Below are positions 4,616 through 46,856 of a stretch of DNA of 64,000 nt, one piece after another. The stretch lies in assembly GCA_947561395.2 (NCBI GenBank), contig OX387183.1, positions 39,724,901 to 39,788,900 of the forward strand, written 5' to 3'. The position numbers and the translations under genes are program-made. How positions within the stretch are numbered: position 1 is the stretch's first letter; every line of letters starts with the position of its first letter. Below the pieces are notes generated by a model. It worked only from the letters and a program-made list of their open reading frames with translations. It had not been told where the DNA came from and made no database searches. This DNA is from Buxus sempervirens (taxonomy: Eukaryota > Streptophyta > Magnoliopsida > Buxales > Buxaceae).

Positions 4616-4793
4616 GACCGCACTTTATGTGCGGTCAAGTCATGACCGCACATATAGTGTGGTATTGATCTTATCTGCATCGCTAGCTGTCCCTAGCTGT
4701 GCCACAGCTGGCGGATTCGCACAGATTGCACACGTTTTAAACGCGACCACATTTGAAGTGCGGTCAAAGCGGAACCGCATTTAAAGTGCGGTT
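4616..4793 (+). promoter_or_regulatory. Heptamer-grid inverted-word array of T1, upstream of its TATA box
   Basis: GACCGCA at 4616 and 4644 and AACCGCA at 4773 alternate with reverse-complement words (TGCGGTC 4630 and 4759, TGCGGTT 4787). Every word is 7 bases and every spacer 7 bases. The array ends 15 bases before the TATA motif CTATAAATAGG at 4808. A second, decayed array with the same word lies at 8414-8462 (AACCGCA 8414, TGCAGTC 8456). Confidence 0.8.
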
Positions 4794-4807
4794 CCGAAAA
4801 TTTTTGC

Positions 4808-4818
4808 CTATAAATAGG
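4808..4818 (+). promoter_or_regulatory. TATA box of T1
   Basis: CTATAAATAGG directly follows the word array. The equivalent motif occurs after the arrays in T2 (minus strand, 7151-7160) and T5 (about 45776). Confidence 0.65.
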
Positions 4819-6255
4819 TGTCCACCCCCCATTGTTTAGGAGGCCTCTTATGCCCTCTCGACCCCCTGTCTCTCCGACGACCAGCGACCGTCCAATACCA
4901 TCCTCCATCACTCCAACCTACTTTAATCCCCAAAATACCCTTCCAAAACTCCCCTTTTGATCCTTTTCTTTGATTTTTTACACACTAAAACACCAAAAGA
5001 GCCAATTTGTGGAGTAGGAGGAGCTTTCGTACTCCTGTCCACATCAACAAGAGGACCACAAACCATCCAAATCGAAAGGTAATATCAATGTGAGCTTTCT
5101 GTTGGTTTTGTGTTTGACATATACAAGAATCAAGTTGTTTTAAGCAAGATTTCTTTTTAATTATATTTAGATCTTCTTCTTTGTTGTTATAGTCTCACCT
5201 TTTGCTTCTTTTGTGCATGCCATGAGATCCCCTTGGTAAGAAGGGGATCTCCATACGAAAGGATGGGAGGATGAGGGCCCTTGTTCAATATAAAAGGTCT
5301 ATTGTGGATCACTTTAGATCATTTTTTACTGTTGATTTATCTTTCATTTCAAGAGGAGTTTGTCCTCTTCTTAGTCTCCTTTGTACCCCGAATTAACTCT
5401 CCCCTCTTTCCTTTCTCTTAGTTAGAATTATTTATCATTTTCTTGTTTATATGGTTATGATTTTAGCATCTTGTCTTTTGGCTTCTCTCAGGATTCATCA
5501 TCATGTATGTTTAGCATCATATCCACTGTGCGCACCTAAAATCGATCTAGATCGCACATCGGGAGCACTTTCAGTGCGTGCCTTAGGACTTTCGGAGTCG
5601 CCACTGCCTGAGAGGTGCAGGCAGACACGGTGTTTGCCCTATTCGGGTCTAGGTTTGGTCTGCGGCTTTTCAAAGTTCTAGCTAAGTCCTCGGTTACGTC
5701 CGGGGAAGTCCGAAGACACCCCGGCCCGCCCTGTCGGTTTGACGGGTCCCTCGGGTCTCCCTGGTTTTTGAGTCAAGTTCACCCTTCCTAAACCAACATG
5801 CTGCTTTATTTGGTCTGGTGGGGCCCTCTGAAGGTGTGGGTCCCTTTTACTTTAATTTTATCTTCTTATTTAATGAAGTGGGTCGGACCCGGGTCCCGTT
5901 GGAAGACCCGTGGGTTGCCATGGTTGGGCTTGAGGCCCAGTGGGGTTATTGGGTAACCCCTTTGGTTATTTTATTCATTTACAACTTTTTTGGGCTTAAT
6001 GGGCTTGGAATGGGCCCATGAGCCAAAGTCAAGTGGCCTTGGGCCCGTTTATTAAAAACGGGCCCGGTTTGGGCCGGTCAAAATGTGGGCCACTCAAGTG
6101 GGCCCAAGATGAGTCTTGGTGGGCCCATCTAGGCCCACAGTCCACAAATGGGCTAAAAATAGCCCAAACAACATACTGAGTCGGGTCAAGTTGATTCGGA
6201 TCGGAACAGATCCAACCAGGTCAGAAAATTGCATTCTTAAGTTATTTTTAAACCT

Positions 6256-6360
6256 GCCCGTGTTTGCTATACGGGCTGCTCTTGCCCGTAAATGTAAATC
6301 GGTTCGGGCTTGCCCGTACCGTAAATACGGGCATGCCCGAACCGTACTGAGTTTACGGGT
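6256..6360. promoter_or_regulatory. Second heptamer-grid word array of T2
   Basis: A continuous run of 15 seven-base blocks. Words GCCCGTG (6256), GCCCGTA (6284, 6312) and AACCGTA (6340) alternate with TACGGGC (6270, 6326), ATCGGTT (6298) and TACGGGT (6354), each separated by exactly seven bases. It uses the same GCCCGTA word as the TATA-proximal array of this LTR at 7174-7360. Confidence 0.85.
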
Positions 6361-43321: not shown

Positions 43322-45147
43322 CTACCTCAGAGACTATCTGCTCACCAAGCTCCTCCACAGGAATATTTGCATAGTCTATATAAATAATCTAAATGAGATC
43401 GAAGATCCCAGTAAGCAATCATCCTTAACTTAAGTAAACAATGCATCATAATATATAAATCACGCTACATCACAAACCAATATGTGCAAGTGAGAGAAAC
43501 AGATATCTCACTAAATAACAAGAATTCACAATAAGATTCATAACACTTACAATAATCATCAACTATAATATATAAATCAATTCATAACTTAACACCAGAA
43601 CAATTCGATTAATCCAATAAACAATTTATATTATATCACAAGACTAATCAAAGTAATGTCCAACCGAAATTATAGACATCGGCCACGACTACAACTATAG
43701 GAGTTAGGCTGCACATCCTCTGGATCATAAGATCACCACATACAACACATTTCGAGTAAATCCCCTTCTACTGGGAAATACCAATGACATCGCTCACAAT
43801 GCTAGGAAGAATCACACATCTCGACAGGCTCTCATCATAAAATAAATAAAAACATGCCAAGAGGAATCTTCAACTCAATCAGTTTCGTCGCTACAACCAG
43901 TACAACTCCCTCTACTCCCATACTGAAGAGCCCTCACACACTCAAGTTTTAATTTATCTTTTTATGCATTCATACAAATGACTCAATATCCAAAACATAA
44001 TAAGGATCTCTATTGAGATCAAATAGTGAAATTCATTTGGCCCTTATTAACTAGTAAATTTCTAACCCACTATTGATAAGGCTAAACTTATTGCAGGGTA
44101 AAGCCAATTTAATTAGGGTGCAATATACACAATTAAAAATTAGAAATACCAAGTGTTAACCTATTCTAACCTGCTCGAAATATGCTTATGTTTCAAATAC
44201 AAGCCTACTATAATAAAAAAAATGCAATTTTAAACATGCTTGTGGAATTCACGTGAAATTTTGAATATCAAAGGTAAATATCATTGTTTGAAATTTATTA
44301 TATTTATATAATCAATAGAATCCACTTATGATGATAAGATGCAAGTAAAATAGTCACGGAGTCATATGCCACGTTCACGTATAAATTACCAATTTCTAGT
44401 CAAATTTCCCAATTTCTTTTCCATGCAATAATTCAAGTGATATTATGGTCAATCAATCGATTTGGTACAAAAACTTTGATTAGAATCTAGTTTATTTCTT
44501 AAACTAATTTTTGAGCCATTATGCCAAGTCCTTAACCAAGCTTTTAACTAAGCCATGCTACTAATTCTAGTCTAAGCCATATCAAAGCCATTCTAAGAGA
44601 TTATAATGGGGGCACATGGGGCATATGCCCCACCCGGGGGGTGCCATGGCACCTCGGGTGGGCCCCATGACATTTTTTTTTTCAATTTTTTGAATATATC
44701 AGCCACATGCAACCACTTGGTGAATTACGATGTACCTATGAAATAAGGCTTGTATAAGTTCTCATGTTTTTGCATTAACAACGCTTTGCATGCATAGGCT
44801 TTTTACATATTCTATTTTGGAAAGATAAAATGAATCTAAACTATAGCAAATGCTATGAACTACTAAGGTAGATATAGTGTTTCTAATTGTTAACTATACA
44901 TACAATGCTATGTTAACAAACAGTAAGTTATTAACTAATTATTAAATATTTATTGAAGAGTAGCCTAATGCAATGCTACAAAGTTATTAACTGATTATTA
45001 AATATTTATAAAGAATAACCTAAAGGCAATATTATTACACGTATATGTGTTAGATGTGGAATTCTTATTGTGATGTAAGCTTACAGTGTTTTTGGTTTTG
45101 TTGTGATGGTGCTGTGGTTGTCACTATAAAATAATCACATACTCAAC
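43322..45147 (-). repeat. LTR-like repeat continuing after Y1, boundaries not resolved
   Basis: The flanking repeat resumes after the CTACC duplication and is AT-rich without genes. At 44615-44669 a strong hairpin is present: nested arms CATGGGG / CCCCATG, CCACCCG / CGGGTGG and GGTGCCATGGCACC at the centre. The right edge abuts the LTR of element C. Confidence 0.45.
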
Positions 45148-45524
45148 TGTAAGCATCTCATTTTTGCACCCCTCTAAAAGGCTCGAAGGCAAAACCCTAA
45201 AAAACAGGTCGAAACCCTAAGTTGTAGAAGTTGACTTTTAGCCCAAGTCCAAATTGATTTCCATATCCTATCCCAATGGGTAGAGGGCTCCAACACGGTT
45301 CTAATGCAATTAAGTTTGCAGGAATCAAAGCCCAGATGGAAAGGATATGAGAAAAACTGTCCTCGGGGCAAACCAGTCAAAGTTTAAAATATCTTAATTA
45401 AACTAATTAAGATAAATGTGAAATAATAAAAATCGAAAGAGCTTAATTCGACCGAGTGGGCGGCTGAGACACCTCAGCTGTCAACTCAACCAAAAAATGG
45501 GAGAGAAAAAGTCAAATATGAAGC

Positions 45525-45762
45525 GACCGCATAAAGAGTGCGGTCAATTTTTCGGCCACCGTTAGCATGAGCCAATCGCAGCACGCGGTGGACAAAAAGC
45601 AACCGCACTGTAAGTGCGGTTCACTTTTCATCAGACTGCACCTGCGCCAATTTGTCCCCTATTTAATGTTGAAAAGACACGGCCGAACTGCACATACCCT
45701 GCGGTTTCGATCAAACCGCACAAAATGTGCAGTTTCGACCAAATCGCATATTATGTGCGGTT
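45525..45762. promoter_or_regulatory. TATA-proximal heptamer-grid array of element C LTR
   Basis: The main block 45686-45762 is 11 consecutive seven-base units: AACTGCA 45686, TGCGGTT 45700, AACCGCA 45714, TGCAGTT 45728, AATCGCA 45742, TGCGGTT 45756, with 7-base spacers. Two further word pairs precede it (45525/45539 and 45601/45615). The TATA box follows 14 bases later. Confidence 0.85.
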
Positions 45763-46779
45763 TCCAACCTGCGTTCTATAAATAGCAAATTCAGGCATGG
45801 AACAGGGGGTTGGGTCATTCTTGGCTGTTCTTCCTCCACACCCCATTGTACGAAATATCCCCTTCTAGCTTCCCACCACCTCCTGAACCCATCAAACCTT
45901 TCCTAAATTTCCCCCCAACACTTCCTCACCCCCACCTACTCCTTTCTCACTTAAGGAAGAGCCCAAGAAGTTGCTGCTGGTGTAAGGAGGACACTACCTA
46001 GCTGCTGTTCTAGCCTCAAAGGAATTCACTCCATTACAAGAAGGTCATTTGACCCCAAGGTGAGACTCCTTGCTGTATCTTGTTTAACATATGTGAAATG
46101 AGCATGTTTTGAGTCTTTGGAGTTTAGTTTGTATACTTGAATGTTTGTCTGATGCTGGAGCATGTTCCTATCTTCTTCTCCTTATTCTTTTCTTTTATTC
46201 ATGTCCTCACAAATGCAAGCTAGCCCCCATGGTAACGGGGGGAGGGTACGAATGACTCCAAGAGTGGATGAGAGGTCATTTCTACATGGTTTTAAAGGCC
46301 CTTAATTTTCTGTTTCTTTGCTGTCTTTTTCCCTTCGAATGGGGAGCATGTTCCACTTATTTTTCATTCCATTGTATCCCTAAATCTCACCCCCTCTTCT
46401 CCTTCAGTTAGAGTGAGTGGTTAGTTTCTTTTGTTGCTTGCTAGCTTTATAAATCTATAGCTTGTCTTCATGATCATGCATATATGATAAAAATATCTTA
46501 CACATCCACACACTCATCATTATATCTATTGTTTTTGCATACTCCATGGTGGTGTCCTCATGCATGGCTACTAATTTTCTTGTTTAGTTTAGTTTGTTGA
46601 TGTCGATCGAGCATATTTGTGAATGAATGAATGGATGAAAAGCATGTTTTGGCTATGAAATGAGCTATTGAACCATTGTGGGTCTGCTTAGAGACCCACA
46701 GAAGTTCACATATGCCCCTGGAGAGAAGACCAGCAGATACTCGTGGCTATTCTGGCCTTTTTTCTGATTTTCGAACCCG

Positions 46780-46856
46780 AACCGCATATTCAAAGCGGTT
46801 CGGGCCAAACCGCACAAGGTGTGCGGTTACACTTTGATCGCACAAAGTATGCGGTT
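46780..46856. promoter_or_regulatory. Second heptamer-grid array of element C LTR
   Basis: AACCGCA 46780, AGCGGTT 46794, AACCGCA 46808, TGCGGTT 46822, GATCGCA 46836, TGCGGTT 46850, with exact 7-base words and spacers over 11 units. It carries the same word as the TATA-proximal array of this LTR. Confidence 0.85.

Follow-up and report, generated by a model that had tools for sequence, protein, structure and literature searches.

The 64,000-bp stretch of Buxus sempervirens DNA analyzed here (the window; C3:39724901-39788900 of the 676.5-Mb genome) contains several fragments of Tat-type long terminal repeat (LTR) retrotransposons, whose LTRs carry arrays in which a seven-base word alternates with its reverse complement at a 14-base step. 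The arrays are confirmed and extend far beyond the first description: the same geometry is abundant genome-wide, the arrays lie upstream of TATA boxes, the words along an LTR change together, and arrays also occupy the promoters of plant mobile domain (PMD)/DUF7745 accessory genes. We lean, at a little better than even likelihood, toward reading them as promoter-proximal arrays of dimer-binding sites that would be recognized by a PMD-type protein encoded by the elements themselves and would act on transcription.

Detection of the arrays

A first-pass annotation of the window had named arrays in four LTRs (T1, T2, T5, and Y1), all of which were present at the coordinates given. A blind scan scored each position for six-block runs of any seven-base word and, in turn, its reverse complement, set at a 14-base step. 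It ranked 46780, 45686, 42624, 6256, and 7174 as the top five places in the window, with 4717 sixth and level with an unrelated AT-rich place at 39719. Step 14 gave five clusters with scores of at least 35 out of 42, and each of the other 22 steps within 8-30 gave none. Shuffled controls, which that annotation had proposed as a check, did not reproduce the grid: the highest score in 100 dinucleotide shuffles was 34, below the array clusters, and the score at 4717 (32) was equalled in 13 of the 100. The 14-base phase was also kept in other copies in the genome. The blind scan was also applied to 10-kb stretches at 20 evenly placed sites, of which 19 have letters (the remaining one, almost wholly N, gave no match in the scans and was excluded from the 3,705-window background used below). 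Five step-14 arrays were recovered with scores of 36-38, all with a CCG core, and the other steps returned an AT microsatellite with scores of up to 38 and a small number of isolated places scoring 33-35.

The blind scans are unbiased with respect to the word, and the free-word count given below is unbiased except for its fixed CCG, whereas the word tables were derived with a position-specific scoring matrix and are biased to CCGYA. Chains below 14 or below 18 bits and array clusters below 29 bits were dropped before counting. The words listed for the arrays share the common core RHCCGYA, although some of them are decayed (ATCGGTT at 6298, for example). The LTRs, arrays, and associated features of the window are as follows, with class II words described in the next section.

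4062-9168 (+), T1 LTR, starting with TGTTAGCACC at 4062, with a primer-binding site (PBS)-like TGGCAACTC at 9170; ends approximate; split by the T2 LTR
4616-4664 (+), T1 distal U3 array, GACCGCA three times and then TACCACA, step 14
4745-4793 (+), T1 TATA-proximal U3 array, GACCACA, GACCGCA, AACCGCA, AACCGCA
4808-4815 (+), T1 TATA box CTATAAAT, 14 bases past the last array word
8414-8462 (+), remnant of the T1 second array, decayed, 22 bits
5604-7928 (-), T2 LTR, PBS-like TGGCGACTC at 5595; apparently nested in T1
7312-7360 (-), T2 distal U3 array, GCCCGTA type
7174-7222 (-), T2 TATA-proximal U3 array, GCCCGTA four times
7153-7160 (-), T2 TATA box CTATAAAT, 13 bases past the last array word
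6256-6360 (-), T2 second array, eight words, about 0.8 kb downstream of the TATA box and directly before the GGGCCC-rich U5
41114-43325 (-), Y1 LTR, ends approximate, PBS-like TGGCGACTC at 41114
42624-42728 (-), Y1 U3 array, eight words, a mix of GCCCGTA and GACCGTA
42429-42436 (-), Y1 TATA box CTATAAAT, 187 bases downstream of the array
45148-47521 (+), T5 LTR, start inferred by alignment to the other T LTRs, PBS-like TGGCGACTC at 47522
45525-45762 (+), T5 U3 arrays (45525-45545, 45601-45621, 45686-45762), RACCGCA words, absent from the first-pass annotation
45776-45783 (+), T5 TATA box CTATAAAT, 13 bases past the last array word
46780-46856 (+), T5 second array, six words, directly before U5
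59213-59389 (-), class II array in the U3 of Y2, five units of ATCCGAC/ATCCGAA, seven bases, and the reverse complement, some decayed, at a 39-base period; likewise absent from the first-pass annotation
19125-19655 (+), T1 RT_RNaseH; 19514-20089 (+), T1 RVT_3/second RNase H (aRH); then integrase pieces at 20201-21148 (Integrase_H2C2 at 20201-20500)

A T LTR usually begins with the U3 start and a distal array. After about 65-90 bp comes a TATA-proximal array with four to six words, which is separated by 13-14 bp from the TATA box; a second array, with four to eight words, follows about 0.8-1.7 kb later and precedes the GGGCCC-rich U5 and the PBS. The U3 regions of the T and Y families show no mutual match in a self-comparison of the window and have different match places in the loci collected from the genome (L numbers below); both carry the grid. 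According to the map, the T2 LTR lies in reverse orientation inside the T1 LTR, apparently as a nested solo LTR. A further T-related LTR (D, 24114-26757, minus strand) is without class I arrays; inspected by eye, it carries repeated CTTAACC(C)TTAAG-type palindromes before a TATA-like box at 26157 and decayed class II-like palindromes before its U5.

T1 has the order of RNase H, second RNase H, and integrase by which the Tat clade (Ogre/Retand) is defined in the available part of PMC6317226, with aRH between the first RNase H and the integrase, and RVT_1 was also found in T1. The domain order was read for T1; T2, T5, and Y1 are represented here by LTRs and at most gag. Pfam scans of 18 open reading frames (ORFs) of the window returned pol, gag, and one steroid dehydrogenase domain, with two sub-cut-off matches taken as chance.

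Abundance, spacing, and word classes

The exact 14/14 grid (CCGYA-N7-TRCGG-N11-CCGYA) occurs 15,501 times in the forward and 15,523 times in the reverse direction of the genome, that is, in 31,024 matches compared to none (0 + 0) for the backward control; since one array can yield several matches, this figure is no count of arrays. With a convergent spacer of 6, 23 matches were found genome-wide (16 + 7; backward control 1 in all) and with a spacer of 8, 24 (12 + 12; backward control 4 in all), so that spacing 7 exceeds either neighbor by about 1,300 to 1. A linker of 6 instead of 7 between pairs left 2,369 matches (1,175 + 1,194), and a 13-step variant of the grid gave 18. Because a change of the spacer nearly abolishes the matches and a change of the linker does not, we take the convergent pair (word, seven bases, inverted word) as the rigid unit, with a less strictly fixed linker. 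The earlier statement that all spacers are seven bases long is therefore true of the convergent spacer, while the linker is mostly 7, sometimes 6, and 18 in class II. Among 100 listed matches with linkers of 12-42, inspected by eye, the common gap is the distance to the second-next word rather than a 25-bp step.

A free-word count gave the same spacing. When any NNCCGNN word and its reverse complement were paired, one mismatch being allowed, in the window and the loci collected by then, 134 pairs had a spacer of 7, compared to 2-6 pairs for each spacer of 3-6 and 8-13. In the evenly placed stretches, ..CCG[CT]A words stood at convergent distances of 14 (15 cases), 42 (10), and 70 (4), at divergent distances of 14 (10) and 42 (4), and at same-strand distances of 28 (19) and 56 (8). 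Seven other cores showed no convergent count above 5 in these stretches, some of them having small same-strand peaks, and ..CCGGA gave peaks at a same-strand distance of 39 (12) and a divergent distance of 12 (10), which probably represent a second word class.

Units picked by CCGYA-N7-TRCGG alone (93 half-sites) retained letters that lie outside the search pattern: the position two before the core was A in 44, G in 49, and C or T in none, and the position next to the core was A, C, or T and never G, giving the consensus RHCCGYA, mostly followed by Y and W. The spacers had been described as free and AT-rich, which fits the inside of the pairs (GC 0.29, n = 95) and does not fit the linkers (GC 0.49, n = 50), where a weak symmetric A-N-G-N-C-N-T preference was seen.

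The second class (class II, ATCCGRN) comprises ATCCGAC, ATCCGGC, ATCCGGT, ATCCGGA, and ATCCGAA, and also AACCGAA, with a convergent spacer of 7 and a period of 39 bp. Counting spacings up to 90, neighboring units stood at 39 in 20 of 24 cases in class II and at 28 in 80 of 109 cases in class I. Pairs of ATCCGGT with any spacer of 2-14 were found at 9,433 genome sites versus 29 for the backward control, and the spacer was 7 in all 100 among the matches listed. The class II units of Y2 (59213-59389) adjoin a part of U3 that is 92% identical to that of Y1, at the place where Y1 has its class I array. A helical-phase role of the linker (39 - 28 = 11 bp) was considered and set aside as suggestive at most.

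Position relative to TATA boxes

Array clusters from the window, from pattern-picked loci, and from the evenly placed loci (n = 62) were compared with CTATAAA boxes within 260 bp. The TATA box pointed away from the array in 34 array-TATA pairs and toward it in 1, where one box may serve two arrays and many clusters are without any box; in the first set of 31 clusters, the ratio was 18 to 0. Twelve of the 34 pairs had an array-to-TATA gap of 13-14 bp, 18 had one of 171-216 bp, and the remaining 4 fell within 52-151 bp. Copies of the exact TATA core TTGCCTATAAATAG had class I pairs upstream in six of ten cases.

Coordinated change of words

The words change together along an LTR. Within a locus, uniformity, taken as the share of words with the majority letter, was 0.906 at position 6 compared to a mean of 0.676 and a maximum of 0.73 in shuffles (256 words, 29 loci, 2,000 shuffles), and at position 2 it was 0.711 compared to a shuffle maximum of 0.664, with position 1 inside the shuffle range. 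Since the loci share descent and are not independent, this uniformity is read as coordinated change and not as a probability. Between the second array of L040 and that of one L029 LTR, with flanks 78% identical, position 6 differs in seven of eight words and position 1 in one of eight, and the spacers differ at 37% of sites; the retention of position 1 suggests that the blocks are homologous and were not replaced. A comparison against T2 of the window, whose array has flanks 78% identical, showed differences at position 6 in eight of eight words, at position 2 in six of eight, and at position 1 in three of eight.

This pattern bears on neutral tandem repetition, in which a 28-bp palindromic unit would have been multiplied by slippage and spread with the elements. 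The exact 28- and 39-bp periods are what such a process would leave, and Tandem Repeats Finder lists two arrays of the window (45700-45764 and 59202-59407). However, the spacers vary between blocks while the core is kept, the convergent spacer hardly shifts while the linkers do, TATA distances are similar in LTR families whose U3 regions do not align, and, in the comparison of L040 with the L029 LTR, position 6 changed in nearly all blocks while position 1 mostly kept its block-specific letter. We regard slippage as a very improbable origin of the grid.

The first-pass annotation had also proposed that the words keep changing to escape host silencing, and the joint change is equally or more compatible with a binder that changes. 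If the words were targets of silencing (through CCG methylation, small RNAs, or SRA-domain readers), the element would gain by changing them; every word contains CCG/CG, and 43 of 54 departures from the core (positions 3-5) are C to T or G to A, as for methylated cytosines, although the scoring matrix favored these changes. A silencing target would be expected to be lost, yet tens of thousands of matches retain the words with their exact spacing, upstream of TATA where tested, and this explanation therefore appears highly unlikely.

Each convergent pair could also fold in the element RNA as a 7-bp hairpin with a 7-nt loop, so that tandem stems might serve packaging, dimerization, or translation control; a fixed spacer fits a fixed loop, and the second array, downstream of TATA, is presumably transcribed. 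Pairing in a stem did not leave the trace that this reading, one of three raised by the annotation, would lead one to expect. At positions 2-7, convergent partners agreed no better than words drawn at random from their locus (0.74 versus 0.77 at position 2, 0.86 versus 0.86 at position 6), agreement being slightly higher at position 1 (0.69 versus 0.62), and position 2 differed in 9 of the 11 convergent partners from three Y copies. In addition, R and not-G beside the core are kept in sequence, and the arrays precede TATA boxes, including those of accessory-gene promoters. The discordance of partners, together with the place before TATA, favors DNA half-sites over RNA, and we give an RNA-level function very little weight. 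Sites for a dimeric protein are the best supported of the three readings, given the 7-base spacing, the TATA distances, and the retained R and not-G; the unit is the pair, and the accompanying idea of alternating DNA faces would be a further conjecture.

Arrays in promoters of PMD/DUF7745 genes

ORFs with PMD (PF10536) or DUF7745 (PF24924) were found in four loci with arrays or with these LTRs (L029, L016, L012, and L015). The PMD ORF of L029 lies between two same-strand T LTRs (parts 82% identical, perhaps not of one element) and that of L016 upstream of gag, both in sense orientation, and in L012 PMD is antisense to pol, where both the orientation and the pol reading of 7876-9999 were judged by eye. 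L015 has two PMD genes with a ten-word array between them that immediately precedes the TATA box of the second gene, and in L012 four class II units precede the second PMD gene, the last one 13 bp from CTATAAA. From order and strand, we infer that the genes and LTRs of L015, and likewise those of L012, belong to one element, and in these two, the loci in which both sides can be seen, the word class at the gene promoter is that of the LTR side. The region that separates the PMD ORF of L029 from one of its T LTRs contains short tandem repeats (2734-3797); Retand elements are known to have tandem repeats ahead of their 3′ LTR, according to the available part of PMC11963269.

A profile search of the genome with PF24924 gave 5,751 first-look candidates, of which 118 were scored, all above the cut-off, and 14 control genomes gave none. 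Ten promoters, taken as 251-bp stretches 230-480 bp upstream of PF24924 matches, were tested for arrays, eight belonging to split-type matches (profile 18-200; the matches follow one another in the list, with a single row of another type in between) and two to one-exon controls (profile 5-337). At least two array units were present in 8/8 split-type promoters and in 0/2 controls, compared to a background of 70 among 3,705 overlapping windows drawn from the evenly placed stretches. Four word types from both classes are represented: RHCCGYA with T in five near-identical promoters, AACCGCA (decayed) in one, AACCGAA at 38-39 bp in one, and ATCCGGC at multiples of 39 bp with a 13-bp TATA gap in one. 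TATA-like motifs were seen in six of the eight, and in the L053 promoter CTATAAA lies, by eye, 13 bp past the last word.

Extra ORFs with PMD occur in 57% of Ogre elements and those with Transposase_28 (TRP28) in 23% of Retand elements, as given in the available part of PMC6317226. A search of the genome for the TRP28 family returned 0 matches, its 14 control genomes being silent too, and among 5,522 candidates in the protein collection no homologue of the accessory PMD first exon was found at E ≤ 1e-5.

A proposed element-encoded reader of the arrays

In the explanation that we prefer, the unit would be a convergent pair of 21 bp, in which 7 bp separate a half-site from its inverted counterpart, contacted by a dimer of a sequence-specific DNA-binding protein, with two inverted half-sites 14 bp apart for each dimer and several dimers aligned upstream of TATA at a period of 28 bp (class I, RHCCGYA) or 39 bp (class II, ATCCGRN). 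The binder would be encoded by elements of the Tat/Ogre lineage and would most likely be the PMD/DUF7745 accessory protein, which has an array in the promoter of its own gene and is the most economical candidate for a reader; it may control both its own gene and the LTR promoter, by activation or by anti-silencing. Such a self-recognizing loop would resemble that of VANC in VANDAL elements (PMC5735166, as far as the available text goes), here with inverted, phased words and in retrotransposons, and the words would change together when the specificity of the binder changes. More tentatively, and at somewhat below even likelihood, the arrays may form a changeable address system, in which an element-encoded PMD-type protein reads 7-bp-spaced inverted words in its own and matching LTR promoters, new words arise by co-evolution of protein and array, and related elements recognize one another; the address words would be RHCCGYA with T or C at position 6, ATCCGRN, and AACCGAA.

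The main rival is a hijacked host factor. A dimeric host transcription factor would bind the arrays, which the LTRs would exploit as an enhancer, and the PMD promoters would be copies of the LTR module, with PMD not the binder. A site upstream of TATA that is present in two LTR families and in accessory promoters fits any promoter-activating factor, and heat-shock-element arrays in heat-responsive retrotransposons provide a precedent. A single conserved factor would be expected to fix one word, whereas the word classes differ between LTR copies of the same family and change together along an LTR, and at least two classes with different periods exist in one genome. We consider this explanation a real possibility, though an unlikely one.

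Several findings weigh against an element-encoded PMD-type reader with a word code of its own. Both word classes occur within 2.6 kb in L038 and L043, perhaps in different elements, and the arrays of the Y family mix words at positions 2 and 6 inside one LTR, so that the code is not strict. Four of the ten copies of TTGCCTATAAATAG have no class I pair upstream; two of these (L024 and L028) have class II, one is cut by the locus end, and one, at 55939 of the window, has none. The eight promoters are not independent, five being near-identical copies and all being among the best-scoring matches, and no TATA-like motif was seen within the 251 bp of L046 and L048. Between L015 (class I) and L012 (class II), PMD gene 2 has first exons that share 81% identity over 228 aa, which implies that, if the PMD gene 2 protein reads the words, specificity would reside elsewhere in the protein or in gene 1; PMD gene 1 is 54% identical between the two loci. 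No PMD was found among the 18 window ORFs scanned with Pfam. Finally, for the host PMD proteins MAIN/MAIL1, the interaction of the complex with chromatin is stated as unknown in the available part of PMC9899485.

Relation to known systems

Inverted half-sites at a fixed short spacing that are read by dimers or multimers are known from the everted repeats of auxin response factors and from heat-shock-element arrays, whose half-site letters and arrangement differ from those of the arrays described here. VANDAL elements are DNA transposons. In these Mutator-like elements of Arabidopsis, the element-encoded VANC protein binds a short motif and methylation is lost, and the likeness to the arrays here lies in short motifs, in dense non-coding arrays, in motifs that differ between families, and in units of one copy that diverge together (available parts of PMC5735166 and PMC10398659). 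The VANC21 motifs form same-orientation arrays, and no fixed phase is mentioned in the available parts of the same reports, whereas the words here alternate in orientation, keep exact spacing, occupy a place tied to TATA, and are hosted by LTR retrotransposons. Family-specific, jointly changing motifs are thus common to both, with the relatedness of copies uncorrected in our comparison, and a shared orientation is not. We treat the arrays as candidate motif arrays serving an element-borne regulator. No description of phased inverted-word arrays in LTRs was found in the literature, in which subscription journals were thinly covered.

Accessory ORFs of the same clade as the elements here have been reported as PMD in Ogre, Transposase_28 in Retand, and gene23 in Grande, and a regulatory role was suggested by the authors for the antisense ORFs of Tat elements; the available parts of these reports (PMC6317226, PMC7264820, PMC11963269) describe no target sites, and the arrays here are a candidate target. 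The host PMD proteins MAIN/MAIL1 share the domain PF10536, and with the "DOWN" promoter motif they are tied to promoter sequence and transposon silencing (PMC7156037, PMC9899485, in part). The DOWN motif given for MORC1 (CATGCAGTTT; PMC9899485, in part) is, by eye, unlike both RHCCGYA and ATCCGRN, and direct DNA contact is unproven there. The function of the extra TRP28 gene is described as an open question in the available part of PMC11963269. With a fixed, abundant, and computable site upstream of the LTR promoter and an accessory gene at hand, the question of PMD/Transposase_28 function becomes directly testable. Tat/Ogre elements form large parts of some plant genomes. If the elements encode their own regulator, retrotransposons would share self-recognizing control with the VANDAL DNA transposons, with address words that can be read and tracked through evolution.

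Other features of the window and loci

A 36-bp tandem repeat family at 62085-63251 has a unit with a 6-6-6 palindrome (CCATGT, six bases, ACATGG, by eye), which is of another geometry and not CCG-based. A near-perfect tandem duplication of 345 bp (99% matches) lies at 52310-53007. The ORF at 37615-38154 (minus strand) contains the 3-oxo-5-alpha-steroid 4-dehydrogenase domain (PF02544) and is likely a host gene fragment among retroelements. Outside the window, long frames that by eye resemble copia-type gag/pol, unconnected with arrays, were seen in L010 (5537-6475), L025 (1764-6733), and L017 (4314-6785).

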